Shown one piece after another: positions 1 through 14,048 of a stretch of DNA of 64,000 nucleotides. Numbering within the stretch: the first letter of the stretch is position 1; the number at the start of each line of letters is the position of its first letter. The translations under genes and the position numbers were made by a program. Below the pieces are notes generated by a model. That model saw only the letters and a program-made list of their open reading frames with translations, had not been told where the DNA came from and searched no databases. The DNA comes from Hyphococcus sp. (GTDB lineage Bacteria; Pseudomonadota; Alphaproteobacteria; Caulobacterales; Parvularculaceae): contig JANQON010000006.1 in assembly GCA_028289605.1 (NCBI GenBank), forward strand, positions 124,001-188,000, read 5' to 3'.

Positions 1-50
1 TCGGCCGCATGTCGGCGCGCGGCGTCGAGAGACAGCTCGCCCGCGCTCAC
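1..50 (-). CDS. hpnD: Start of a hopanoid gene, probably presqualene diphosphate synthase (partial)
   Basis: Only about 16 codons are inside the window. A GTG at 50-48 on the minus strand opens the reading MSAGELSLDAARRHAA and runs off the left edge. This GTG overlaps the TGA of the hpnC gene (GTGA), which suggests translational coupling. In hopanoid loci hpnC is commonly followed by hpnD, which converts farnesyl diphosphate to presqualene diphosphate, the substrate of HpnC. The call rests on position and coupling; the visible residues are too few to prove the family. Confidence 0.5.
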   Translation of the reverse strand, partial: MSAGELSLDAARRHAA

Positions 51-934
51 GCCGCGCCCTTGCCTGCCTGCAAGAAGCCCGCTACAGCGCCGCGAACGCC
101 CGCCGATGCGAAATCGAGTTTGGAAAGCGCGACCCGGGACGCCAACGGGTCGCCGCGGCGCAAGAGTGCAATCAATCGAGCCGCAAGGCGTATGATCACC
201 GCCGATTCCATCGCAAGACTTTTCGACTTCAGCGCCGCCGGCAATTTATGCGCGTCGATCATCAACGCGTCGCAACCGTCGAGCATCCGGTGCTTGACCG
301 CATCCAGCGCCGCGCTCGACGCCGGTCGGTCTAGATCTTCGACGGCGCCGCCTTTTTCTTGCAACCATGGTTCGATCACATAGACCCGATCGAGGTCGCG
401 ACGATCGTCGCCGCAATCCTGCAGATGGTTGACGATCTGAAGCACCGTGCACAAGGCGTCGGAATAGCGGTAGCCGGCCTTGTCCTCGCCATGGAGGTCG
501 AGGAGATAGCGACCCACCGGATTGGCCGATAGCTCGCAATAGCCGAGCAGCTCTTCCCAAGACGCGTAGCGGGTTTTCTCCGCATCAAGCACGAAAGCCG
601 CGACCAGGTCGGAGCCGTGCTTCGTGGTCACGCCAACCTCGGCGAGGCTCTCGCGCAAGGCGACCGCTTTTTCGTAGCCCGGACCTTCCGGCGCATCGCC
701 CTGAAGAACGGCGTCGAACGCGCGCAAGCGGCGGATCTTCTCTTCAGGGGCGAGGTCCGCATTGTCGGCGACATCGTCGATCGCCCGCGCAAAGTCGTAA
801 TACTTCGCTACATGGGGCCGAAGGCGCTTGGGCAACAAAAACGAGCCGACGGGAAAGTTCTCGTCATTGGCGCCCTTGCCGGACGGGGTCTCGGCGCTGG
901 CGGCGGGCTCTGCAATATCGGCGGTCGTGGTCAT
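47..934 (-). CDS. hpnC: Hydroxysqualene synthase HpnC
   Basis: A 295-residue member of the trans-isoprenyl/squalene synthase fold. HpnC turns presqualene diphosphate into hydroxysqualene in the HpnCDE route to squalene and hopanoids. The family opening ENFPVGSFLLP is present, followed by the first Asp-rich motif (DDVAD) and the second motif in NHLQDCGDDRRDLDRVY. The frame is open further upstream, but the ATG at 934 has an AAGGTG Shine-Dalgarno about 10 bases before it and gives the usual length, whereas the upstream extension is low-complexity and overlaps the divergent gene's promoter. It is transcribed away from hpnB across a 114-bp gap that must hold both promoters, and it overlaps the start of the downstream hpnD-like gene. 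Confidence 0.9.
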   Translation of the reverse strand: MTTTADIAEPAASAETPSGKGANDENFPVGSFLLPKRLRPHVAKYYDFARAIDDVADNADLAPEEKIRRLRAFDAVLQGDAPEGPGYEKAVALRESLAEVGVTTKHGSDLVAAFVLDAEKTRYASWEELLGYCELSANPVGRYLLDLHGEDKAGYRYSDALCTVLQIVNHLQDCGDDRRDLDRVYVIEPWLQEKGGAVEDLDRPASSAALDAVKHRMLDGCDALMIDAHKLPAALKSKSLAMESAVIIRLAARLIALLRRGDPLASRVALSKLDFASAGVRGAVAGFLQAGKGAA

Positions 935-1048: not shown

Positions 1049-2212
1049 ATGATCTTGTTCCTCGCCACCCTGTCGCTCGCCGCCTGGATCTATCTCGCCC
1101 TGTTTCACGGCCGATTCTGGCGCGCCGACCAGCGGCTCGGGGATGCGCCGGCGCCGGCTTTGTGGCCGCCCGTCGCCATCGTGATCCCCGCCAGAGACGA
1201 AGCCGCCTCAATCGGAGAGGTGATCGCCGCTCATGCGGCGGCTGATTATTCGGGCGAGGTGTCGATTGTTCTTGTCGACGACAATTCGACCGACGGCACA
1301 GCCGATGTTGCTAAGGCCGCCGCCGGCGACGGCGCTGACAAACTCACGGTCATCAACGGCGCCCCGCTCGCTGAGGGATGGACCGGCAAACTGTGGGCCG
1401 TGCGGCAAGGGCTAGCCGCCGCCACAGAAATGAATCCCGCCTATGTCTTGCTTACCGACGCCGACATCGTTCCAGCGCCGGAAACGCTGTCGCGTCTTGT
1501 CGCGAAGGCGGAACGAGAGGGCTTGTCTTTGGTCTCGCTAATGGCGCGCCTCGATGCGCGCGGTCTGTGGGGCGGATTGCTGATCCCGGCCTTTGTCTAT
1601 TTCTTTCAGAAGCTCTATCCGTTCCCCCGCGTCAACGACGCAACGAGCGACGTCGCCGCCGCCGCCGGCGGCTGCATGCTTGTCCGCACCGACGCGCTGA
1701 ACGCCATCGGCGGCGTCGACTCCATCCGCGATGCGCTGATCGATGATTGCGCCCTCGCCCGTCGCATTAAAGACCACAAACCGGGCGCCAAAATTTGGCT
1801 AGGCCTCGCTAGCGACGAAGCCAAAAGCCTGCGCGACAATCGATCGCTGAATTCGGTATGGAACATGGTTGCGCGCACCGCTTACGCGCAACTCGCTTAT
1901 TCGCCGCTGCTGCTCGCCGGCACGGTGATCGGTATGGCGCTCATTTATCTTGTCCCGCCCGGCGTCGCGCTGACGCTCGCAATGCATGGCAATGAACTGG
2001 CCGCCGTGTTTGCACTCATTGCTTGGGGGCTGATGGCGTACACCTATTGGCCGACGCTTGGCGTCTACAAACAACAGCCATGGCAATCGACGACGCTTCC
2101 GCTTGCCGCCGCCTTTTACACAGCCATGACAGTGGATTCAGCGATCCGCCAAATGCGCGGCCGCGGCGGTCAGTGGAAAGGCCGCCATTATGATTTTCGT
2201 AACGTGTCCTAG
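1049..2212 (+). CDS. hpnB: Hopanoid-associated glycosyltransferase HpnB
   Basis: A 387-residue GT2-type membrane glycosyltransferase. The N-terminus is a membrane segment (MILFLATLSLAAWIYLALF), then the nucleotide-sugar-binding region with VAIVIPARDE, LVDDNSTDGT and LTDADI (the acidic metal-binding motif), and at least two hydrophobic segments near the C-terminus (around LAYSPLLLAGTVIGMALIYL and the AVFALIAWGLMAY stretch). This layout fits HpnB, a conserved member of hopanoid loci whose exact substrate is not settled. The reading frame is open back to 617, but that part is antisense to hpnC; the ATG at 1049 follows an AAAGGA and starts the family's usual N-terminus. Divergent from hpnC. Confidence 0.85.
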   Translation: MILFLATLSLAAWIYLALFHGRFWRADQRLGDAPAPALWPPVAIVIPARDEAASIGEVIAAHAAADYSGEVSIVLVDDNSTDGTADVAKAAAGDGADKLTVINGAPLAEGWTGKLWAVRQGLAAATEMNPAYVLLTDADIVPAPETLSRLVAKAEREGLSLVSLMARLDARGLWGGLLIPAFVYFFQKLYPFPRVNDATSDVAAAAGGCMLVRTDALNAIGGVDSIRDALIDDCALARRIKDHKPGAKIWLGLASDEAKSLRDNRSLNSVWNMVARTAYAQLAYSPLLLAGTVIGMALIYLVPPGVALTLAMHGNELAAVFALIAWGLMAYTYWPTLGVYKQQPWQSTTLPLAAAFYTAMTVDSAIRQMRGRGGQWKGRHYDFRNVS

Positions 2213-2314: not shown

Positions 2315-2593
2315 ATGTCCCATACGCATAACTGTCTTGGACCGTATTTTCTTTCGCTGGTTTGCGAGACCGAAAACGATTTGAACCGCATCGAAACCGT
2401 TTACATCGACGGCTTTGAAACGGAGGCCGACGCATGGCGCGCATGCCGCGAGCTAAAGGGCTACGGCGCGATCGAAGCGGTCAACGCAAGCGGCGCTGAT
2501 ACGTCTGTCGATCGAGGCGACATCCTTCAAGTGATGATTGCGAAGACGTCGGCTGCGGATTTTCCGCCGGGGTTTGCGGTTACTGCGGCTTAG
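2315..2593 (+). CDS. Small hypothetical protein (92 aa)
   Basis: I do not recognise a family. The 92-residue product has no signal peptide or membrane segment. It is mildly acidic, with a central stretch (YIDGFETEADAWRACRELKGYGAIEAV) that looks like a compact alpha/beta fold. The ATG at 2315 is preceded by AGAGG about 8 bases upstream. The gene stands alone about 100 bp after hpnB, and a palindromic repeat begins seven bases after its stop. The 2213-2314 gap is AT-richer than its surroundings and may hold its promoter. That it is a real gene is supported by the ribosome site and codon usage only. Confidence 0.55.
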   Translation: MSHTHNCLGPYFLSLVCETENDLNRIETVYIDGFETEADAWRACRELKGYGAIEAVNASGADTSVDRGDILQVMIAKTSAADFPPGFAVTAA

Positions 2594-2711: not shown

Positions 2712-3560
2712 TCAACCCAACGACCGCTGAGGGTGCCGCCCATCCACATACCCCATAAACGGCGGATGGATTGAATAGCCGATCAACTGACGCGCCCGTT
2801 CGGGCAGGGTTTTCGCGATGTCCGGCGGCACGGCGATCGCCATGTTTTCGAGCTGCCGCGTCCATCCCGGACAATATTGCGGGGTAATGATCAGGCGTGA
2901 TGCGTCTGACCTGTTGGCCCCGCCGCGATGCCAAAGCGTTCCCTTTGCGAGCATCAACGAGCCGGCCGGCATGATCGCTTTGACCGCATCCGCCCGCGCG
3001 CCGGGATCGCCTTCCCGCGATCCCGCTTTTTCAAAGTCTTCGCTTTCCGCGGCGCCCTCAATCAGCTCTTCTTCCCAGAGATGACTGCCCGGCAAAATCT
3101 CTGTCGCGCCGTTATTCTCTGTTGTGTCGTCAATGGACCAAAACGCGCTGACGCCAAGGGACGGGCGCGGCCGCGGCCACTGATAATGGCTGTCGTCATA
3201 GTGCCAGGGTTGCGGCGTTTCGCCGGGATGCAGATTGATCGCAAGACACGCCGACAACAAGCAGTCGGCGCCGAGATCGGCTTCGGCAAAAGCGAGCGCC
3301 AACGGATGCGTAGCAAGATCGGCGAACACGCGCCCCTTCGCCAAGAGGGCGTATACGCGATTGGTTTCGCGTCCTTCGAATTCATTGCGCCCTTGAATAT
3401 TGGCGTTGATGTAGGGCTTCAGGCCGGCGCGAATGTCGTCGAGCTGCGCGCTCGTGAGAACACGGTTGAAGGTAACATATCCTTCGCGATCGAATTCCTC
3501 GCGCCAGTCCGCAAAAGAGCGTCCGCCAAGCCATTGTTGGATGTCGTGTATTTCGGTCAT
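2712..3560 (-). CDS. Phytanoyl-CoA dioxygenase (PhyH) family protein
   Basis: A 282-residue Fe(II)/2-oxoglutarate-dependent oxygenase of the PhyH superfamily. The facial triad is visible as H120-x-D122 in QPWHYDDSHY and the distal H211 in GTLWHRGGANRS, with downstream Arg residues for 2-oxoglutarate. Such enzymes hydroxylate lipid-like or small organic substrates. The ATG at 3560 has AGGGAT 8-9 bases upstream; longer in-frame starts have no better site. It is the last gene of a minus-strand run of sulfotransferase, propeller lipoprotein and HpnA-like epimerase, 61 bp after the epimerase stop. The substrate is unknown; a hydroxylated lipid or hopanoid is an inference from context. Confidence 0.8.
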   Translation of the reverse strand: MTEIHDIQQWLGGRSFADWREEFDREGYVTFNRVLTSAQLDDIRAGLKPYINANIQGRNEFEGRETNRVYALLAKGRVFADLATHPLALAFAEADLGADCLLSACLAINLHPGETPQPWHYDDSHYQWPRPRPSLGVSAFWSIDDTTENNGATEILPGSHLWEEELIEGAAESEDFEKAGSREGDPGARADAVKAIMPAGSLMLAKGTLWHRGGANRSDASRLIITPQYCPGWTRQLENMAIAVPPDIAKTLPERARQLIGYSIHPPFMGYVDGRHPQRSLG

Positions 3561-3621
3561 CGCTGCGATCCCTGTCGCCTCCGCGCCGACAACCATCGCG
3601 CATTCGCCGCGGCGATGAAAC

Positions 3622-4605
3622 CTATTTGCGCAGCCAGCCCTGCTCGCCGAACCAATGGACGGTCGCCTCAAGCGCAGGCTTCCATGGGGACGCCCGCCAG
3701 CCAAGCTCTCGCGCGGCTTTTTCGCTGGAAAACGAAACCTGACGGCCGGCGAGACGCACGCCCGTGAGTGGGGCTTTCGGCGGCTTTCCGGTCATCGCGG
3801 CGACGAGATGCGTGTCGACCGCGCCGGCGGCGAGCGCCACCCAGTAAGGCATCTTCGTTTTCGGCGCCGGTTGGCCGGAAACACTTTCGATTTCGATCAG
3901 CAAGTCTTTCATCGGCGTGTTGTCGCCGCCGAGCAAATAGCGTTCGCCTTTTTGTCCGCGCTCGCGCGCCGCAATCAACCCTTCCGCAATGCTGTCGATC
4001 GGAACGAAATTCAAGATGCAGTCGATATAGGCCGGCGTCGCCCCATTGGCGAAATCGAGCAACATGCGCGTCGGCGGCGTCAGCGCCGTATCGCCCGGGC
4101 CGAGTGGTTCGGTCGGCATGGCGATCACCGCGTCAAATCCTTTTTGCGCGGACGCTTCTACAAGGCGTTCGGCTTCCAGTTTCGATAGCGGATAGGGACC
4201 CAGCATGTCCGTAGGCGTGAGCCGATGGGACTCGTCCGCCGTGGAGACGCCGATAGGCGTGTTTTCGCCGACGAGCGTCGTCAGGCTTGAGCAGTGTACG
4301 AACTTTTCGACGCCGGCGTCCATGGCTGCGTTCAAAACGACCTCGGTCCCCTGGCGGTTGACGGTGTCGAACACGCCTTGGTCTTTCGCCCATAGCTGCG
4401 CGTTTCCGGCGAGATGAAAGACGGAGTCGATCCCCGCCATCGCCGCCGCAACGGCGCTTTCATCCGTGATCGAGCCCTGGACATCGTCGTTGGTCCCGGG
4501 CGCAGCAAGATCAAAAGACCGGACCGTTTCGCCGGCCGCCCGCAATTGACGGACCAGCGCTTTACCCACAAACCCGGCCCCGCCGGTGACAAGCGTTGCG
4601 GCCAT
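3622..4605 (-). CDS. hpnA: HpnA-like NAD-dependent epimerase/dehydratase
   Basis: A 327-residue extended SDR. It has the Rossmann glycine motif TGGAGFVG, the DxxAx site F-H-L-A-G-N, and the YxxxK motif in GPYPLSKLEAE. The stretch GPGDTALTPPTRMLLDF followed by PAYIDCILNFVPID closely follows the pattern of hopanoid-associated sugar epimerases (HpnA). The ATG at 4605 overlaps the TGA of the upstream lipoprotein gene (TGATG), so I prefer it to the in-frame ATG six codons earlier. HpnA is expected to process a sugar nucleotide or act on a lipid side chain; its substrate is not certain. hpnB/hpnC lie 2-3 kb away, which supports the name, but another extended SDR (for example a 3-beta-hydroxysteroid dehydrogenase type) is possible. 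Confidence 0.75.
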   Translation of the reverse strand: MAATLVTGGAGFVGKALVRQLRAAGETVRSFDLAAPGTNDDVQGSITDESAVAAAMAGIDSVFHLAGNAQLWAKDQGVFDTVNRQGTEVVLNAAMDAGVEKFVHCSSLTTLVGENTPIGVSTADESHRLTPTDMLGPYPLSKLEAERLVEASAQKGFDAVIAMPTEPLGPGDTALTPPTRMLLDFANGATPAYIDCILNFVPIDSIAEGLIAARERGQKGERYLLGGDNTPMKDLLIEIESVSGQPAPKTKMPYWVALAAGAVDTHLVAAMTGKPPKAPLTGVRLAGRQVSFSSEKAARELGWRASPWKPALEATVHWFGEQGWLRK

Positions 4606-5681
4606 CAGGACGCCGCCTCGCACACGATCAAACCCTCATCGACAACGGAACCGGCGATCAATCCGCGGTCCGTTTCGACAGCCGCCGTCGCCGCGCTGAA
4701 CAGCGCGCCTTTCGGATCGTCGAACAAAATCGTTGAATCTCCCGCAGCCGGATCGATGCGGACGATCCGCGAGCCTGCGCGACCAAAGCCCAGCTTGCGC
4801 TGAAACGCAAGCCGGATCAGCGACGGATGCAGCGCCGCAACAATCTCGCCGTCTTTCGACAATGTCAGGTTGTCCGGCGCCCCCGGCAGCTGTAGGGGCG
4901 TTTCTTCGACAAAAGTCGGCGCTGCGCGCGCGTAGCGTCGCAGTTTCTTTTCCCGCGTCGCCGCCACGATCAATTCGTCATCAGCGACCAATAAGCCATT
5001 GGCGAATCCGACCTTGTCGGCGATCCGAGCGCCGTCCTCTCCGATGACGCCGCCGCCCCGACCGCCGAAAACGTCTTCCACCGCCGCGCGCCAGCCGCAG
5101 CCTTCATGATCCGCCGTTACGAAGATGCCGCTGTCGACATGGGCGATATCATTGGCGGCGCAATGGGTCTCAGCAGCGGCGACCGTTCCGTTCGAATCGA
5201 TATTGATTTTCTGCGGACGCATGCGCCAGCGCCCCCCGTCCTTGACGTAACCTCGGTTGATAAAGGCGAGATCGCCGGTCGCCGGATCAAAGGCAATCCC
5301 ATGTGGACGCAGGCCGTTCTCAACGTCGTCCCGGTCAATGACCGACGACGCCGCAACAGGCGTTCCCGGCGACTGGAACAAGTCGTTGAACGAGATCGCA
5401 TAGAGCCCCCCTTCGGCCGGCTCCGGTCCGCTCTTTCGCGCCGCGCGTTCAGCGGCGCGGCGGTCATAAGCCGAGACGTATAAACGCTTATTGGCGAAAT
5501 CGGGCGCAAGGTCTTCTGCGCCTGTTACAGTCGCGCCGGTTTCCGCATCGATGATCGCGACCCGGCGACAATCAGCCTGCGTGTATCGCGCTTCGCCGAC
5601 ATCCTTTGCGCAGGACGCAGCGCAGACAAAAACAGCCGTGAGGAAAAAGAGCTTACGCCGCACTGTCCTGCGCCGCCCCAT
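4605..5681 (-). CDS. Beta-propeller lipoprotein, SMP-30/strictosidine-synthase-like
   Basis: A 358-residue predicted lipoprotein. The start MGRRRTVRRKLFFLTAVFV is a basic then hydrophobic signal sequence ending in the lipobox AASC. The body has repeated propeller-blade patterns such as RPHGIAFDPATGDLAFI, GFANGLLVADDELIVA and GAPDNLTLSKDGEIVA, typical of the SMP-30/gluconolactonase, strictosidine-synthase and arylesterase folds. The start overlaps the last 29 bases of the sulfotransferase gene, and the stop shares TGATG with the HpnA-like gene, so the three are probably translated together. Ribosome signals before 5681 are weak; a GTG at 5663 is an alternative. Lactonase or esterase action on an envelope lipid is plausible but unproven. 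Confidence 0.7.
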   Translation of the reverse strand: MGRRRTVRRKLFFLTAVFVCAASCAKDVGEARYTQADCRRVAIIDAETGATVTGAEDLAPDFANKRLYVSAYDRRAAERAARKSGPEPAEGGLYAISFNDLFQSPGTPVAASSVIDRDDVENGLRPHGIAFDPATGDLAFINRGYVKDGGRWRMRPQKINIDSNGTVAAAETHCAANDIAHVDSGIFVTADHEGCGWRAAVEDVFGGRGGGVIGEDGARIADKVGFANGLLVADDELIVAATREKKLRRYARAAPTFVEETPLQLPGAPDNLTLSKDGEIVAALHPSLIRLAFQRKLGFGRAGSRIVRIDPAAGDSTILFDDPKGALFSAATAAVETDRGLIAGSVVDEGLIVCEAAS

Positions 5682-6783
5682 TCTGCGCTGGTTGTTGCGC
5701 TGCGCCGGGTACGGCGTATCCCCATTTATCGACAAAATACTTTAGGCGGCTTTCCACTTTCGCTGCCGCTTCGTCCGAATAGGCGAATTTATTTTTCTGA
5801 AATGTCTTCACTGACGCCAAATAGCGTTCGAAGGCGTCGCGAGAGGCCTCGAAACCAGGCAGCGCCAGGGCCGAATAGATCTTGTCGAGCGCATCCATCG
5901 GCGCTTCATCAAGCTCTTTGTACCCCAGTTCGATCAGCAGCTCGGCGGGCGTATTCGCCGCGTCTTCCTCATAAGCTCGCATCATGCGCTCATAGACCGA
6001 CAATATGGTCTCATCGATGTCCACATGCTCGTAGCTTTGCAGCGCGAACTCTTTCAGGAGCTTCTGATAGAAATTCCGCATTGAAAGAAAGACTTCAAAG
6101 GGATTGCGGTGGATGTGGATGAACTTCGCCCCCGGAAACATTTCCCGCAGCATGGCGAGACGTCCGGTGTAAACCGGGTTCTTAATAAGGAGCGGCTTTT
6201 GTCCCTGATGCAGGTAGAGCTTGCGCAGGAAATAAGTGAATTGCCGGCGCCAGCTGCGAATGTCCGCCGGCGAACAGCCGTCAAAAAAGAGCCCGCGTTG
6301 CACATTCTCCGCGAAGTTTCGCGGAAAATAGATGCCGTGGTAAAATGAGACCTCCGACATATTCGCAATGGCGATTTCGTCTTCTTGCGGACTTTCCGGC
6401 GTCACCGGGATGTTATCGATATAGCGATGCTCCGGCAGCGCGCGTTCGAGCAGCGGCGCAAATGCTTTGGCGAGACCGAAGAGATCCCAGGGAAGTCCGG
6501 TCGCCACCGGCGGCACAAAGCCCCACTCCCCGCTCTGACACATGACGTTGTAGAGATGGGTCGTGCCCGACCGCCAGTGACCGAGGATAAAGACCGGCGG
6601 CGGCATATCGTCGATCGCCGGCAGGCGTTGCTCCATCACCAGCTTCTCGCCGGCTGAGAACGGCCATCGACCGAGCGCCGCCAAGGCGATCCCGGCGCCG
6701 GCCAGCGGCTTGGACGGCAGGCCCGATCGGCCGGTGACCGCACCCAATGTTCCGATATTCGCTCCGCTAAGTGGATGCGCCAT
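5653..6783 (-). CDS. Sulfotransferase family protein
   Basis: A 376-residue PAPS-dependent sulfotransferase. The 5'-phosphosulfate loop is FILGHWRSGTTHLYNVM (residues about 65-81) and the 3'-phosphate site is the FIHIHRNPFEVFLSM segment. The N-terminal 40 residues contain a hydrophobic patch (AGIALAALGRW), so membrane association is possible. The ATG at 6783 gives a normal family length; a GGGAAG lies somewhat far upstream. It heads a minus-strand operon with the propeller lipoprotein, HpnA-like epimerase and PhyH-like oxygenase, suggesting that a hydroxylated lipid or glycan is sulfated. A 237-bp gap separates it from the divergent tamA and should contain promoters in both directions. Confidence 0.85.
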   Translation of the reverse strand: MAHPLSGANIGTLGAVTGRSGLPSKPLAGAGIALAALGRWPFSAGEKLVMEQRLPAIDDMPPPVFILGHWRSGTTHLYNVMCQSGEWGFVPPVATGLPWDLFGLAKAFAPLLERALPEHRYIDNIPVTPESPQEDEIAIANMSEVSFYHGIYFPRNFAENVQRGLFFDGCSPADIRSWRRQFTYFLRKLYLHQGQKPLLIKNPVYTGRLAMLREMFPGAKFIHIHRNPFEVFLSMRNFYQKLLKEFALQSYEHVDIDETILSVYERMMRAYEEDAANTPAELLIELGYKELDEAPMDALDKIYSALALPGFEASRDAFERYLASVKTFQKNKFAYSDEAAAKVESRLKYFVDKWGYAVPGAAQQPAQNGAAQDSAA

Positions 6784-7020: not shown

Positions 7021-8787
7021 GTGACGCGCACGTTTTTACATTGGCATCGCCGCTTTTTTGTCGCCGTCGCGGCGGCTCTATGCCTTGCCGCGCCGCCGGT
7101 CCTGGCGCAGGAGACCTACGAGGTTGAATTCCGCGGCGCCCGCGGCGCGCTGAAGAAGAATCTCGAAATTATTTCCAACCTGAACAAGGGATTGCGCGAA
7201 TACCCGACCATCGCCGCCTTGCGGCGGGCCGCGCGCCGGGACATTGATGCGTTTGACGTCGCGCTGACCTCTTCCGGGTATTATCTGGGTGAGGCCTCGT
7301 TCACGATTGAGCGGGCCGACGACGACGGCAAACCGACGGTCGTGTTCCTCATTGAGCCGGGCGAGCGATTCACCGTCACTGAATACGAGATCCTGTATCG
7401 CGATGAGTTTGAGGGCCGGCCGACGACCATGACGCAAGCCGGCATTGAGCCGGACGGCTCCGCCGCCGGCGCCGATCTGCGCGACGCCCAGGTCGCTTTT
7501 TTGAACCATCTATGGAACTCAGGCTATCCGGGCGCCGAGACGGTCGCGCGGCGCGCCATCGCTCTACCGGACAAGGCCGAGGCGACCGCCGTCTTTGTCT
7601 TCAACAGCGGGCCGAAGGCGCGCTTCGGAGACATTCAGATCGAGGGTCTCGACAAGACCCACGACGACTACGTTCGCAAGTTAAAAACCTGGGAACAGGG
7701 CGATGAATATGAACGCGCCAAGATTGTAAGCTATCGCGACCGGCTCGGCGCGTCGGGACTGTTTTCGTCAATCAGCGTTTCGCCGGGCGCGCCGGACGAC
7801 GATGGCGAGGCTCCCGTCATCGTTGACCTCGAGGAACGCAAGCGCAGGACCATCGGCGCCGGCGTATCCTTTTCAACGTCGGAAGGCCCGGGCGGGCGCT
7901 TGTTTTTCGAGAACCGCAACATCTTCGGACGCGGCGAAGACTTTCGCATAGAATTGCGCGGCTCAGAAATCGAGCAGTCGATAGACTTCACCGCGCGCAA
8001 ACCCTTTCCCGAGCTCCCCGGTTACGTTTTCGCCAACTTTGGTTTGTCCAATGAAACGACAGACGCCTTCGACGCCCGCTCGATCAGAGTATCCGGCGGG
8101 GTGTCGAAACTGTGGCTGGACGACAGACTTGAAACCCGCAGCGCCATCGCCCTCGAAACGTCCAAAGTCGAAACAGCGACCAGCGAGGAACGCACCTACT
8201 TCGTCTCCGCGCCTTTGTCGGTCATCTGGGATTCGGAAAACGACCTGTTGCAGCCAACCAAGGGTTTTCGTGCACAACTGACAGTGACGCCTTATACAGG
8301 CTCCGACACGTTTACCCAGGCCGAACTGGGCGGACGCTATAGACTGTTCTTTGGCAAAGACGACGCCATGACGTTTGCCGCCCGCGGCGCGCTCGGCGCA
8401 ACCTTCGGCAACGCCCTCCTCGACTTGCCGGCGAACAAGCGGTTTTTCGCCGGCGGCGGCGGATCGGTGCGCGGATTTGCTTTTCAGGAGGCCGGTCCGC
8501 TGGACGCCAACAACGATCCGATCGGCGGGCGGTCCTTTGCGGAAGGCGGCGCTGAATTGCGCGGAAAAGTTACCGACAACATCCAGCTTGTGGGCTTTGC
8601 AGACGCCGGCACGGTCATGGCCTCGACGCTGCCGGACTTCAACGAGCGCTTCTTCGTCGGCTATGGCGGGGGCGTGCGGTATTTTACGCCGATCGGACCG
8701 ATCCGTTTTGATGTCGCCTTCCCGCTCAATGGTCGGCCGAGCGACCGGAACTTCCAGATCTATATCGCATTGGGGCAGCCGTTTTGA
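7021..8787 (+). CDS. tamA: Outer-membrane translocation and assembly protein TamA
   Basis: A 588-residue Omp85-family protein. A signal peptide (about residues 1-29, ending PPVLAQ) is followed by POTRA domains and a C-terminal 16-strand-type barrel. The conserved lid-lock motif GSVRGFAF is near residue 480, and the last strand ends in F (QIYIALGQPF), as expected for a BAM-recognised barrel. TamA works with TamB in moving or inserting outer-membrane components. The start codon is GTG with TAGG upstream. Its TGA overlaps the ATG of tamB (TGATG), so the pair is translationally coupled. Confidence 0.9.
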   Translation: MTRTFLHWHRRFFVAVAAALCLAAPPVLAQETYEVEFRGARGALKKNLEIISNLNKGLREYPTIAALRRAARRDIDAFDVALTSSGYYLGEASFTIERADDDGKPTVVFLIEPGERFTVTEYEILYRDEFEGRPTTMTQAGIEPDGSAAGADLRDAQVAFLNHLWNSGYPGAETVARRAIALPDKAEATAVFVFNSGPKARFGDIQIEGLDKTHDDYVRKLKTWEQGDEYERAKIVSYRDRLGASGLFSSISVSPGAPDDDGEAPVIVDLEERKRRTIGAGVSFSTSEGPGGRLFFENRNIFGRGEDFRIELRGSEIEQSIDFTARKPFPELPGYVFANFGLSNETTDAFDARSIRVSGGVSKLWLDDRLETRSAIALETSKVETATSEERTYFVSAPLSVIWDSENDLLQPTKGFRAQLTVTPYTGSDTFTQAELGGRYRLFFGKDDAMTFAARGALGATFGNALLDLPANKRFFAGGGGSVRGFAFQEAGPLDANNDPIGGRSFAEGGAELRGKVTDNIQLVGFADAGTVMASTLPDFNERFFVGYGGGVRYFTPIGPIRFDVAFPLNGRPSDRNFQIYIALGQPF

Positions 8788-11700
8788 TGCAACGGACCCT
8801 GATCATAACCGCGATCGTGATCGCAAGCCTGGCGTCCATCGTCGTGCTGGCGGCCGCTGCATTGTTCCACACGCCGCCTGGCCGCAACTTCATCATCACT
8901 CAGATCGAATCGGAGATCGCTGCGTCAGTCGGCGGCGCAGCGGAGATCGGCGCGCTCAAAGGATCGCTGCCCGGACACATCGTCGTCGAAGACCTGGTTC
9001 TTTCTGATCAGCAGGGCCCGTGGGCGACGATCGATCGTATTGAGTTGCGCTGGCGACCGTTCGCCCTTATCGACCGCGCCGTCCGCATCGACAACGTCGC
9101 CATCGAGCATGCGGCGCTGTTGCGCGAGCCGCCGGACCGGCCCGACGATGGAGAAGACGAACCGCTGACGATCAAACTGCCGGAACAATTACCGCTGATC
9201 GCCATCCGCGATCTTAAGATCGTGAATTTCAGCAGCAATCTTGGCGGCGTGCCGGCGCGCTTCGACGGCGCCGGTTCCCTCGACATGGGCGGAGAGGCCG
9301 TGTCGGTGCGCCTTAATCTCGCGAGCGCGGACAATTCTGAAACCATTCGGCTCGCCGCCGACGTTTCACCGGACGCCGACCGACTATTCATTGATGCGGA
9401 AGTCGTCGCAAGCGAGACTGGCTTGATTGCGGCCATCGCCGATCTCGGCGGTCCCATATCGCTGCGCATTAACGCCGACGGCCCTACAGACGACGCTGAA
9501 ATTACGCTGCGCGGCGTCGTCGGGGCTTATGGCGCGGTTGATGCGCGCCTCGACGCCGATCTTGCCGGCGCCGTCTCCGTCAGCGCGAAAGGAACATACA
9601 CAGCCGGCTCCCGGCTCGCCGATATCGCCGAACTGTCAGAGCCCGTTGCATTCGACGTCGCCCTTCAGGACATGCGCCGGGGCGGACAGCTCACCATCAA
9701 CCGCATGACGGGCGCGCCGGGTGAAGTCGCCGGCAATATCGTCTGGCGCGCATTGCGCGAGCGGGATAACAATCTGTCCGCAGATCTGTCATTCGCTTTC
9801 GCAGAAACATACCGGCCCGAGATACAGGCGTATCTTGGCGCCAACCTGAAAGTACAAACAGACTTGCGGCGCCGACCGACGGACTATGCGGCGACCTTGC
9901 GCATCGGCGCCGAAGGCGTCGACATCATGATCACGGACGGCGAGAGCGACCTTGAGACGATCTATAAGGGCGTTCTTTCAGCAGTAATCGCGCCGCGCGA
10001 TGAGATCCTGGCTGAAGAAACGCGCGTGGATACGCGCTTCGACATCGACGTTCAAGACAAAGCGGCGTTCCGCAACTTACGCGTCGCGATCGGCGACATC
10101 GCAGCCGCCGAGGGCGAAGCTGACTTCGACTTCAAAGATGCGTCGCTCCGTCTTGACGCAAATGTCGTTGCCGAACCCGCTTTCGTGACGTGGCTCGCGC
10201 CGACCCTCTCGCCGCAAGGAGCAATCTCCGCGAACATCGAAGCGATCGGCGCGGCGCAAGACTTTTCGCTGAATGCGACCGCCGAAACGCCCATTATCGG
10301 CATTGGCGACGGCGCCGCGCCGGCTTTAACGGCGAGGCTCGCCCTCGCCGGCTTGCCGTCCCTGCCAAACGGCGAGATCAACGCGGACGCCGTCAACGGC
10401 GCCGGCAGCTTCGCCGCAACGGTTCAATCCTCTGAGGACGAAGGCATCGCCGCGCCGCTCATTGCTTACAACGGCCCCGGCTTTTCCCTGAACGGATCAG
10501 CAGCATTTCACCCGGCGAGCCAATCCGGCGAGATCGATCTGACCTATGAGGGCGACGGCGGCGCCGAACCTTGGCCGGGTCTCAATCTGGTCGGCGCGCT
10601 CGACGCAACGGGCCGGTTTGCGCGCCAGAACGGGAACACCAAGCTCGCCGTCAACGCTGACGCCTTAAGAGCCAACAACATTGTAATCGAAGGCTTGCGG
10701 CTGCGCGCATCAGGCCCGCCCGAAGCCATCGCGACGACGCTCAATGCAACGCGCATCACGCCGGCGGATGACACCGACATTACCGACGTCGCCGTCGGCG
10801 CCGCGATTGATATCAGGAGCGCCTTACGCATTTGGCTGACGCAGATGCGCGCGACGCTGCTGGAGAACGACCTCAGTCTGCTGGAGCCGGGAACGATCGT
10901 CTTCCAGGACGGCGCGCAGATTGACAATCTGCGTCTCGGCTGGGGCCGCAACGGCCGGATCGCCGTCGACGGAAGCTTCAACGACACGCGCTGGCGCGGC
11001 GCGTTCGATCTCTCGGGCGTCAATATTCCGCTAACGGACGGGCGCGGAACCATGAAGGTTGATCTGGATACCGATGCGCCGGAACCCGCTGCGGGCTCGT
11101 TTACGCTACGCTCGCTCATTTCGGAAGAAGAAGCCTCCATCAGCGGCGATGTGCGCTGGGACGGCGAAAGTCTTATTGTCTCCAGCATTCCCGACCGGGA
11201 CGCCCTCGAAATGCGGCTCTCCCTGCCCGCGAAGCTGATACGGGCGCCGGCGCTCGCTGTCGAAACCGACGGTCCGCTCGACGGTTATATTCGATATGAC
11301 GGCGCGATCGAACCGTTCGCGGCGTTTTTTCCCTCAACGCTGCAGACGCTTGAAGGATTTCTCGCGGTGAACTTCCGCGTCGGCGGCACGACCGACAATC
11401 CGGAACTCATCGGCGCCGCAGAAATCACCGACGGCGCTTACACCGAACTCCGTTCCGGACTGTCCATCGCCGGTCTGCGCACCCGCGCCGACGCAAGTTA
11501 CTCCGCCGCCGGCACGCGGATCGAGTTTTCCGGCGGCGCCCGAGGCGGCGGCCAGTCGGGCGCCGACACCATCACCATATCAGGCGACATGACGCTGGCG
11601 GAGACGTCGCGCATCGATCTAGCCGTGGAGTTCGCAAACGCGGAATTGTCCGCCTCGCCGATCAACGTGTTGCGCGCAGACGGCGCCATTGAGATTGCGG

Positions 11701-12578
11701 GGCCTTTGGACGCCGTCGCCGCTAAAGGCGACATCTCCGTTAAAGAACTCGACGCAGAGATCGTAACGCCGGAAAGCACGGGCCTGGTGCCGATTGAAGT
11801 CGTCAACATTGAGGATATGGCCGACGATTCAAGGGCGCCGCCCGCAGCGACGACGACAAGACTTGAACTTAACGTCAATGTCGTCGCCGACGACCGCATT
11901 TTCATTCGCGGCCGCGGCCTGGACAGCGAATGGGCGGCGAATGTGCGCGCCGTCACGCAGCGCACTCAACCGGTGATTATCGGCGACGTCGCCTTGCGCC
12001 GCGGCGCGCTCGATTTTTCAGGCCGCCGCTTCACGCTGACGCGCGGCGAAATCGCTTTTGATGATTTGTCGCCAAACAATCCGTTGCTCGACATTCGCGC
12101 GGAACATGAGACCGGCGACGGCGTAACGGCGGCAATTGTCATTTCGGGCCGCTCTAAGGAGCCCGTGATCGAACTTGTGTCGACGCCGACCCAGCCGCAG
12201 GAGGATGTGATGGCGCTCGTCCTGTTCGGCAAGCCCGCAAGCGAACTCACGGCGTTCGAGTCGCTGCAGGCGGCGCAAGCGCTGGCGTCTCTCGGCGGCA
12301 TCGGTCCGTTCGGCGGCGGCGGGATTACCGGATCCATCCGCCAGGCCACAGGCCTTGATATGCTGAATTTCGACATCGATCCGGAAAACGGCGGCGGCTC
12401 GCTGACGGTCGGCAAATATGTCGCCGACGGCCTGTTTGTTTCCGCAACCCAGGACGCTCAGGGCAAGGGCGGGTCGGTCATTGTCGAGTATGAAATCACC
12501 GACAACATTTCAGTTGAAACGGAAGTCCGCCAGGACGGCGATCAGACGGTGTCGGCGAATTGGAAGAGAGATTTTTGA
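8787..12578 (+). CDS. tamB: Translocation and assembly module protein TamB
   Basis: A 1263-residue AsmA-like, bridge-type protein. The N-terminus is a single signal anchor (MQRTLIITAIVIASLASIVV), followed by a very long beta-rich periplasmic region and a C-terminal TamB domain (DUF490) that ends in an aromatic residue (ANWKRDF). Members span the periplasm from inner membrane to TamA and are linked to lipid transport and barrel insertion. I chose the ATG overlapping the tamA stop; a TTG one codon earlier would also be in frame. No other gene follows within 230 bp; a palindromic repeat lies downstream. Confidence 0.9.
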   Translation: MQRTLIITAIVIASLASIVVLAAAALFHTPPGRNFIITQIESEIAASVGGAAEIGALKGSLPGHIVVEDLVLSDQQGPWATIDRIELRWRPFALIDRAVRIDNVAIEHAALLREPPDRPDDGEDEPLTIKLPEQLPLIAIRDLKIVNFSSNLGGVPARFDGAGSLDMGGEAVSVRLNLASADNSETIRLAADVSPDADRLFIDAEVVASETGLIAAIADLGGPISLRINADGPTDDAEITLRGVVGAYGAVDARLDADLAGAVSVSAKGTYTAGSRLADIAELSEPVAFDVALQDMRRGGQLTINRMTGAPGEVAGNIVWRALRERDNNLSADLSFAFAETYRPEIQAYLGANLKVQTDLRRRPTDYAATLRIGAEGVDIMITDGESDLETIYKGVLSAVIAPRDEILAEETRVDTRFDIDVQDKAAFRNLRVAIGDIAAAEGEADFDFKDASLRLDANVVAEPAFVTWLAPTLSPQGAISANIEAIGAAQDFSLNATAETPIIGIGDGAAPALTARLALAGLPSLPNGEINADAVNGAGSFAATVQSSEDEGIAAPLIAYNGPGFSLNGSAAFHPASQSGEIDLTYEGDGGAEPWPGLNLVGALDATGRFARQNGNTKLAVNADALRANNIVIEGLRLRASGPPEAIATTLNATRITPADDTDITDVAVGAAIDIRSALRIWLTQMRATLLENDLSLLEPGTIVFQDGAQIDNLRLGWGRNGRIAVDGSFNDTRWRGAFDLSGVNIPLTDGRGTMKVDLDTDAPEPAAGSFTLRSLISEEEASISGDVRWDGESLIVSSIPDRDALEMRLSLPAKLIRAPALAVETDGPLDGYIRYDGAIEPFAAFFPSTLQTLEGFLAVNFRVGGTTDNPELIGAAEITDGAYTELRSGLSIAGLRTRADASYSAAGTRIEFSGGARGGGQSGADTITISGDMTLAETSRIDLAVEFANAELSASPINVLRADGAIEIAGPLDAVAAKGDISVKELDAEIVTPESTGLVPIEVVNIEDMADDSRAPPAATTTRLELNVNVVADDRIFIRGRGLDSEWAANVRAVTQRTQPVIIGDVALRRGALDFSGRRFTLTRGEIAFDDLSPNNPLLDIRAEHETGDGVTAAIVISGRSKEPVIELVSTPTQPQEDVMALVLFGKPASELTAFESLQAAQALASLGGIGPFGGGGITGSIRQATGLDMLNFDIDPENGGGSLTVGKYVADGLFVSATQDAQGKGGSVIVEYEITDNISVETEVRQDGDQTVSANWKRDF

Positions 12579-12809: not shown

Positions 12810-14048
12810 ATGTGCAATACAACCACGAATATGAGCCAGCTCACTTCCATCGACGTCTCCGATCCCGACCTCTGGGCCCGGCGCCAAACAGCGCCCCTGC
12901 TGGCGCAGCTGCGCGCGGAAGACCCCGTGCATTACTGCCAAGACAGCGCCTATGGGCCTTATTGGTCGGTGACCCGTCATCAAGACATCATGAGCGTCGA
13001 AACCGATCATGAGACCTATTCTTCGGCGGCCGAGCGGGGCGGCGTGGTGATTCATGACGCCCTCACCCAGAAATGGGCGACCCATACGCTGGAGGGGTTC
13101 ATTTCCATGGACCCGCCCCGTCACGGTGAACAGCGCGGCGCCGTCGCCGACATTGTCTCGCGCCCGAACCTCGCCCATTTCGAAGAGATCATCCGCAAGC
13201 GCACGTCAGCGCTGCTGGCGAACCTGCCGATTGGGGAAACGTTTGACTGGGTCAGCGCGGTGTCGATCGAACTCACAACGCAGATGCTGGCGACCCTGTT
13301 CGATTTTCCCTTTGAAGACCGCACCAAATTAACCCGCTGGTCCAACGTCGCCACGTCGGAACCCGGCCTGGGCGTCGTCGACAGCGAAGAAGACCGCATT
13401 CGCGAAATGAAACAGTGTCTGTTCGCATTCGCAAAGCTCCGCCGCGACCGCCAAAACCGCAGCGAAGCGCACGATCTGGTGACGATGTTGGCGCAGCATG
13501 ACGCAACGGCGAATCTCAGCCCGATGAATTTTCTGGGCAATGTGCTGGTGCTGATCGTCGGCGGCAACGACACCACCCGAAACTCTATGACCGGCGCTGT
13601 CGTCGCATTCGATTCGCACCGCGAGGAATGGGAAAAACTGCGGCAAGACCCGACCATGATGGAAAACGCGATTTCGGAAATTATTCGATGGCAAACCCCG
13701 ATCGCCCATATGCGGCGCACGGCGACCACGGACGCCGAACTCGCCGGAAAACCAATCAAAAAAGACGACAAGGTCGTCATGTGGTACGCATCAGGCAATC
13801 GCGATGAAGCCGTTTTCGACAATGCCGATGTCTTCGATATTGAGCGGGGGAATGCGCGCCGGCATTTGTCCTTCGGATTCGGCATTCACCGTTGCATGGG
13901 ACGCCGATTGTCCGAATTGCAGTTGAAAATACTGCTGGAGGAGATGCTTTCGCGCTGGAAGCGCGTGGAGGTCGTCGGCGACCCGGTTATGACGCGGTCA
14001 AATTTCGTGCACGGATACGACGCGTTGCCGGTAAAGATTGTCGCTTGA
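12810..14048 (+). CDS. Cytochrome P450, CYP153-like alkane/fatty-acid hydroxylase
   Basis: A 412-residue soluble bacterial P450. The I-helix oxygen-binding segment is LIVGGNDTTRNSMTG (near residue 250), the K-helix ExxR is SEIIRWQTP, and the heme loop is FGFGIHRCMG with the thiolate ligand C362. The combination GGNDTTRN plus LSFGFGIHRCMG is characteristic of CYP153 terminal alkane hydroxylases, which add oxygen to medium-chain alkanes or fatty acids. An alternative start is the ATG at 12831; neither has a good ribosome site. CYP153 enzymes need a ferredoxin and a ferredoxin reductase; neither gene is near, so electrons must come from proteins encoded elsewhere. Confidence 0.85.
   Translation: MCNTTTNMSQLTSIDVSDPDLWARRQTAPLLAQLRAEDPVHYCQDSAYGPYWSVTRHQDIMSVETDHETYSSAAERGGVVIHDALTQKWATHTLEGFISMDPPRHGEQRGAVADIVSRPNLAHFEEIIRKRTSALLANLPIGETFDWVSAVSIELTTQMLATLFDFPFEDRTKLTRWSNVATSEPGLGVVDSEEDRIREMKQCLFAFAKLRRDRQNRSEAHDLVTMLAQHDATANLSPMNFLGNVLVLIVGGNDTTRNSMTGAVVAFDSHREEWEKLRQDPTMMENAISEIIRWQTPIAHMRRTATTDAELAGKPIKKDDKVVMWYASGNRDEAVFDNADVFDIERGNARRHLSFGFGIHRCMGRRLSELQLKILLEEMLSRWKRVEVVGDPVMTRSNFVHGYDALPVKIVA

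Follow-up and report, generated by a model that had tools for sequence, protein, structure and literature searches.

Gene content of the locus

A 64,000-nt stretch from Hyphococcus sp. (Parvularculaceae; assembly GCA_028289605.1, contig JANQON010000006.1, positions 124,001 to 188,000), referred to as the window, was analysed for four minus-strand genes located beside the hopanoid genes hpnB and hpnC. They code for a sulfotransferase, a beta-propeller lipoprotein, an epimerase and a PhyH-family oxygenase, of which the first three are termed the core cassette. The features of the locus are, in window positions:

5653..6783, minus strand: sulfotransferase (Sulfotransfer_3), 376 amino acids, core gene 1; ATG at 6783, stop codon ending at 5653; Pfam match 5e-27
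4605..5681, minus strand: predicted PON1-like beta-propeller with lipoprotein-type signal, 358 amino acids, core gene 2; ATG at 5681, stop codon ending at 4605
3622..4605, minus strand: epimerase, an extended short-chain dehydrogenase/reductase (SDR) placed in a sister clade of HpnA, 327 amino acids, core gene 3; ATG at 4605, stop codon ending at 3622
2712..3560, minus strand: PhyH-family 2-oxoglutarate/Fe oxygenase, 282 amino acids, genus-level accessory gene; ATG at 3560, stop codon ending at 2712
1049..2212, plus strand: hpnB, hopanoid-associated glycosyltransferase; TIGR03469, 512 bits, above cut-off
47..934, minus strand: hpnC, squalene synthase component; TIGR03464, 253.8 bits, above cut-off
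2315..2593, plus strand: small open reading frame (ORF), 92 amino acids; no Pfam or NCBIfam match

The reading frames of all four minus-strand genes were open in the window sequence, with a 29-nt overlap between sulfotransferase and propeller (an in-frame GTG at 5663 being a possible alternative start of the latter), the junction TGATG between propeller and epimerase, and a gap of 61 nt from epimerase to PhyH. Coordinates and frames agree with the arrangement described in an earlier, sequence-only reading of this DNA. The sulfotransferase scored 96 bits against Sulfotransfer_3 (cut-off 27), epimerase and PhyH matched their Pfam families at 3e-30 and 2e-29, and the propeller gave no match in the Pfam and NCBIfam searches.

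Conservation in Parvularculaceae

For the family survey, 60 relatives including the genome itself were used (36 Parvularculaceae and 24 of other families); a strong propeller orthologue was defined by E < 1e-30, and loci were fetched from 32 other family genomes. Such an orthologue was present in 33/36 family genomes and in 0/24 genomes of other families. Propeller and epimerase were neighbours in all 32 family loci, the sulfotransferase was present in 31 (in L054 as a fragment before the contig end), with the remaining contig ending at this position, and hpnC was part of 29 stretches, the contigs of the remaining three being cut. With start codons placed by script, the 4-nt propeller/epimerase overlap was found in 26/31 loci and the sulfotransferase/propeller overlap in 26/29. 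Shc was encoded in 32 of the 33 family genomes with a propeller orthologue (the remaining one is 76% complete) and was lacking in all three genomes without one. Sulfotransferase, propeller and epimerase form a conserved core.

The PhyH gene was present in 21/32 family loci, all from the window's genus, which accounts for 27 of the loci, and in 0/5 loci from other genera; it was not found in 11/32, among them L064, where the contig breaks off. Where present, it followed the epimerase at a distance of 30–68 nt in 19 cases out of 21, and among the 80 named loci listed (80 of 570 relatives) it occurred only in L084-L090. PhyH is limited to the window's genus, and the "hydroxylated" part of the product proposed in the sequence-only reading is therefore a local trait. 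Of the co-occurrence expected there for four genes, three are kept together and PhyH is not; a fixed four-gene pathway is ruled out by its restriction to one genus.

Linkage to hopanoid genes beyond the family

Named genomes were scanned separately, with the 80 kept relatives making up a list that is not exhaustive, and neighbouring genes were located by targeted tblastn, which replaced a clustering of ORFs that had been swamped by spurious high-GC ORFs. The closest named relatives among the matches listed were Parvularculaceae, records of Marinicaulis, Parvularcula and Amphiplicatus included. Across L083-L129, an epimerase relative was found on the stretch in 37/47 loci and a propeller relative in 27/47; among the weaker matches L130-L162 (31–38% identity), the propeller was found in 0/33 and a distant epimerase-like gene in L156 and L158 only (2/33).

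Four to eight hpn/shc genes were located on the cassette stretch in L056 and L185-L189, and likewise in L237, which is without the propeller. In Azospirillum brasilense (L102, L103; Sp7) and in L101, the genes for epimerase, sulfotransferase and propeller are consecutive with hpnN, shc, hpnG and hpnH, the Sp7 cassette being situated in the hpn cluster on plasmid ABSP7_p1. The cassette is accompanied by hpnG, hpnH and hpnN in L112; hpnH, hpnG, epimerase and sulfotransferase lie inside about 6 kb in Litchfieldella (L114); and sulfotransferase, shc and hpnH occur together in L117 (Myxococcales). Cassette genes were thus found inside hpn/shc clusters of several families, and their order varies between families, so that they are not one frozen block.

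All trees were calculated with a quick method, the sulfotransferase tree comprising 7 family or survey loci and L092-L162 minus L106. Sulfotransferase and epimerase copies of one genome of Parvularculaceae (G028) grouped with copies from metagenome-assembled genomes of Paracoccaceae/Sphingomonadaceae and not with those of their own family, as if both genes had moved together as a unit.

Co-occurrence with hopanoid synthesis

The sulfotransferase was sought in 289 evenly drawn genomes of Alphaproteobacteria, and an orthologue was found in 8 (all at least 530 bits, five families); 4 of the 8 matches were flagged with one stop, with open frames of 365–397 amino acids, i.e. full length. The epimerase adjoined the sulfotransferase in 8/8. 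Shc scored above cut-off in 8/8 of these genomes vs 76/289 overall (Fisher p 2e-5, uncorrected for kinship; naive chance over five families 1e-3). HpnA above cut-off was detected in 56/289 genomes, in 0/8 of those with the sulfotransferase, and none of the 56 carries the sulfotransferase.

In the named genomes, Shc was searched for at L083-L132. It was found in 39/40 genomes of several phyla whose sulfotransferase is at least 43% identical (L083-L121 and L127), and in 26/27 once L083-L095 are left out; the match of L119 is weak and partial, a few are split, and the sole miss (L113) is a 1.8-Mb assembly. HpnH was found in 22 of the 30 loci searched among L096-L129 (34 in all) and in 6 of the 20 searched among L130-L162 (33 in all). 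In the Hyphococcus genome itself, Shc is unlinked from the hpn cluster (contig C10, G000:C10:16617-18449). The link of the core cassette to hopanoids is well supported, and the unit tied to hopanoid genes that the sequence-only reading had proposed is upheld by both linkage and Shc co-occurrence.

Marinicaulis and Amphiplicatus appear as taxa without shc in the accessible part of PMC12583986. Contrary to this, Shc scored above cut-off in Marinicaulis G398 and G402 (L086, L090) and Amphiplicatus G404 (L092).

Assignment of the epimerase

Against the HpnA model (TIGR03466), the epimerase reached 312.7 bits, under the cut-off of 367.65, and against the SdmB/steroid dehydrogenase model (NF052578) 148.6 bits vs the required 600. 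The epimerase trees comprise selected loci from among those fetched, and two long rows, L078 and L079, were omitted from the second tree; row L075 (G058), labelled "module", has a propeller and no sulfotransferase beside it. Cassette epimerases were separated from 31 HpnA rows by a starred branch, and six more genes from genomes without the sulfotransferase fell on the cassette side. Canonical HpnA and SdmB-type steroid dehydrogenase membership are both ruled out by cut-off and tree, and judging from these comparisons the epimerase falls in a sister clade of HpnA, for which the name HpnA2 was coined in this analysis. The earlier description as HpnA-like, with a choice between HpnA and steroid dehydrogenase left to phylogeny, stands insofar as the clade is sister to HpnA and linked to hopanoid genes; the protein belongs to neither of the two families offered.

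GGxGxxG and YxxxK were retained in a 24-row alignment taken from 32 near-full-length relatives, and the nearest solved relative over the full length was 3wj7 (E 2e-69), which we take to be the Gluconobacter SDR Gox2253. The locus resembles a canonical hpn cluster with HpnA in having an epimerase beside hpnB and hpnC, the SDR motifs and Shc in the genome; it differs in that the cassette epimerase scores under cut-off, groups with the sister clade and has genes for a sulfotransferase and a PON-like lipoprotein linked to its own. The role of HpnA itself is given as unknown or merely suspected in the accessible parts of PMC5462960 and PMC12583986.

Two of the six HpnA2-side epimerases without a sulfotransferase lie beside a GH3-family gene (L231:3411-5940 and L233:3091-5859) in two families (G125, G288), possibly representing another head-group route.

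Features of the sulfotransferase, propeller and PhyH proteins

Alignments including the window proteins were prepared from chosen rows of near-full-length relatives (20 of 29 for the sulfotransferase, 27 of 31 for the propeller, 15 of 21 for PhyH). Besides its family score, the sulfotransferase carries the loop GHWRSGTT, presumably binding 3′-phosphoadenosine-5′-phosphosulfate (PAPS), which was invariant in the 20 rows together with other blocks. Its predicted model was nearest to mycobacterial STF1 and STF9, in this order, followed by CurM and tyrosylprotein sulfotransferases. Four solved structures were matched by sequence, STF1 ranking first and 4gox and CurM (4gbm) being among them. STF1 (2zq5) and STF9 (2z6v), nearest by predicted fold and both among the sequence matches, share only 15–16% structural identity with the window protein. 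The mycobacterial sulfolipid pathway (Stf0/MmpL8) couples a PAPS sulfotransferase to a lipid exporter of the resistance–nodulation–division (RND)/MMPL type; its substrate is a trehalose lipid, not a triterpenoid, and no homology is claimed.

The propeller is predicted to adopt a paraoxonase-1-like fold: for the AlphaFold2 model (predicted local distance difference test, pLDDT, 92.6), the ten best PDB matches were all PON1 (E 2e-17 to 6e-16), and strictosidine synthase came next at 2e-10. In a hidden Markov model alignment, PON1 N168, D183, H184, N224, D269 and N270 aligned with invariant or near-invariant residues (27 rows). N168, N224, D269 and N270, which we take to be the calcium ligands of PON1, correspond to propeller N177, N228, D270 and N271, invariant in all 27 rows. 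For E53 and H115, presumably functional residues of PON1, the comparison is with propeller E56 and H127, which were invariant as well but lie outside the reported alignment. The lipoprotein-type signal ends at a near-invariant Cys23. Compared with PON1 (3sre, 1v04), the predicted fold and the metal-site residues are the same, at 18% structural identity, and the protein here is a bacterial lipoprotein. A ribonyl-type lactone would be a guess at its substrate, which we do not put forward as a claim.

Homologues of the propeller in G254 and G140 (L183, L184; 166 and 122 bits) are situated beside P450s, with no sulfotransferase or epimerase on the stretch and no Shc. These are a paralogue with another role, and the propeller by itself is therefore ruled out as a hopanoid marker.

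In PhyH, H120, D122, H211 and R222 were invariant in 15 rows; the first three are taken to be the HxD...H metal triad and R222 the 2-oxoglutarate-binding arginine. Among the structures closest to it are those of the meroterpenoid oxygenases SptF, PrhA and AusE.

Surrounding genes

To the left of the window, hpnE (minus strand) and HpnH (plus strand) scored above cut-off, HpnG (minus strand; 182.4 bits vs 187.1) and an HpnN-like transporter (741 vs 752 bits) just under it, and an HpnM-like gene far under it; a farnesyl diphosphate synthase is also encoded there, and the position of hpnD is held by an hpnC paralogue (57 bits to hpnC). An ORF 36–45% identical to the small ORF at 2315-2593 was found at the same place, 3′ of hpnB, in several loci; it may lie outside the cassette. 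On the other side, tamA/tamB (window 7021-12578) run divergently, beyond the cassette. The tamA gene was found in 23/32 family loci and not in L048, L052 and L056 despite continuing sequence; six stretches end there. After tamB follows a SolI-related cytochrome P450 (window 12810-14048; 408.8 bits vs a cut-off of 850), of which close copies occur in L036, L037 and L057; most other stretches end shortly past tamB.

Proposed pathway

From sequence comparison, the core genes probably constitute a cassette, so far unrecognised, that tailors hopanoids by sulfating the side chain. In the established pathway, Shc, HpnH and HpnG give rise to a C35 hopanoid whose side chain derives from ribose. The HpnA2 dehydrogenase would reduce or epimerise this side chain, whereupon the cytoplasmic sulfotransferase would transfer sulfate from PAPS to a side-chain hydroxyl. 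The anionic lipid might then be carried outward by the HpnN-type transporter, whose gene is a neighbour in several loci. Hydrolysis of a lactone or ester, located in the side chain or the head group, might fall to the PON1-like lipoprotein, which would be anchored facing the periplasm. PhyH may often introduce a hydroxyl in members of the window's genus. PAPS supply is represented by an adenosine 5′-phosphosulfate (APS) kinase, which is encoded in this genome and in 53/60 relatives and is therefore not specific to the cassette. The data establish the genes, their conserved linkage, the co-occurrence with Shc, the conserved catalytic motifs and, as predictions, the folds of two proteins. The sulfated product is an inference, with the hopanoid side chain as the most likely target; the sulfated lipid that the sequence-only reading had deduced from the gene set was a natural conclusion.

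Published chemistry was compared with the distribution of the sulfotransferase. Among 54 alphaproteobacterial strains studied for bacteriohopanepolyols (BHPs), three had BHP genes and gave no Rohmer product, namely Microvirga massiliensis, A. brasilense Sp7 and Skermanella aerolata (PMC12583986, accessible part). The latter two carry the sulfotransferase (for S. aerolata, in the record of strain 5416T-32), with p 0.003 on the assumption that the gene is missing from all other species of the study. We treat this as a coincidence, noticed after the fact and comprising two species only; a side chain bearing sulfate could withstand the cleavage of vicinal diols.

Several points weigh against a hopanoid sulfation cassette. 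Adenosylhopane was the sole BHP detected in A. brasilense, by which the authors explain the missing Rohmer product; they suggest detection limits for M. massiliensis and S. aerolata, and some BHPs of S. aerolata were seen by liquid chromatography–mass spectrometry (PMC12583986, accessible part). The sulfotransferase of S. aerolata lies on a 19-kb stretch without epimerase, propeller or hpn gene. Below 43% sulfotransferase identity, Shc was found in 5 of 10 tested loci, and the genomes of L104, L107 and L110 have Shc while HpnH was not found in them. Azospirillum L124, L126 and L128, of the same sulfotransferase clade, have neither Shc nor HpnH, and that branch therefore does something else. 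All six additional HpnA2-side genes come from Shc genomes without the sulfotransferase, and G058, from another family of the order, has Shc, HpnA above cut-off and a propeller–HpnA2 pair; its fetched stretch contains no sulfotransferase. With a pLDDT of 81, the predicted structure of the sulfotransferase is of medium quality, and no report of a sulfated hopanoid was found in the literature searched, with subscription journals mostly outside it. Separately, a distant HpnB-like glycosyltransferase was seen to adjoin the sulfotransferase in L124 and L128.

Sulfation serves as activation before elimination in the case of the curacin and olefin-synthase sulfotransferases, and the sulfate might similarly be a leaving group here, the activated side-chain hydroxyl undergoing elimination or ring closure to leave an unsaturated, anhydro or cyclic form as the mature hopanoid. 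The olefin-synthase domain 4gox and CurM 4gbm, two of the four sequence-matched structures, also appear among the fold matches; STF1 nevertheless leads the sequence matches, the two top fold matches are STF1 and then STF9, and no conserved elimination partner was seen in the fetched loci, which makes this rather unlikely. It would be quite improbable that PhyH is integral to a four-step route and provides the hydroxyl to be sulfated: its spacing behind the epimerase (30–68 nt in 19/21 PhyH loci) and its conserved catalytic residues would fit, but it was not found in 11/32 family loci (L064 being cut) and in no named locus beyond L084-L090.

The cassette might also act on another lipid or envelope glycan, such as a carotenoid, glycolipid or polysaccharide, and share with hopanoids only the neighbourhood or HpnB/HpnN. 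The Azospirillum branch L124/L126/L128 without Shc and more distant homologues in Bacteroidota and archaea point in this direction, as does the function of HpnB, which is given as unknown in the accessible part of PMC12583986. We consider it unlikely in view of Shc in 39/40 genomes at 43% identity or more, several phyla among them, and of hpn clusters that differ in gene order and yet contain the cassette.

Significance

Hopanoids rank among the main sterol analogues of bacteria, and molecular fossils in wide use derive from them. In a 2025 survey of Alphaproteobacteria (PMC12583986, accessible part), hpnA and hpnB are described as being without established function, and "no obvious candidate" genes are reported in the vicinity of hpn clusters. 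The cassette offers candidate tailoring genes at such clusters, together with a testable product, the sulfated side chain, and a gene marker. A. brasilense Sp7 is a tractable organism that carries it, and sulfation is a possible reason why adenosylhopane alone was reported there.

The analysis suggests that some bacteria attach sulfate to hopanoids, a modification of which no report was found. If this is true, the usual BHP methods and the Rohmer (vicinal-diol) degradation would miss sulfated BHPs, strains with hpn genes that gave no Rohmer products or only precursor BHPs would be explained, and Rohmer-based inventories would undercount such producers. With somewhat less than even confidence, we propose that sulfated bacteriohopanepolyols, as counterparts of sterol sulfates, may be a class of anionic membrane lipids that is widespread but has been overlooked, and whose range would take in Parvularculaceae, Azospirillum and other Alphaproteobacteria as well as some Gammaproteobacteria, Cyanobacteria and Planctomycetes.

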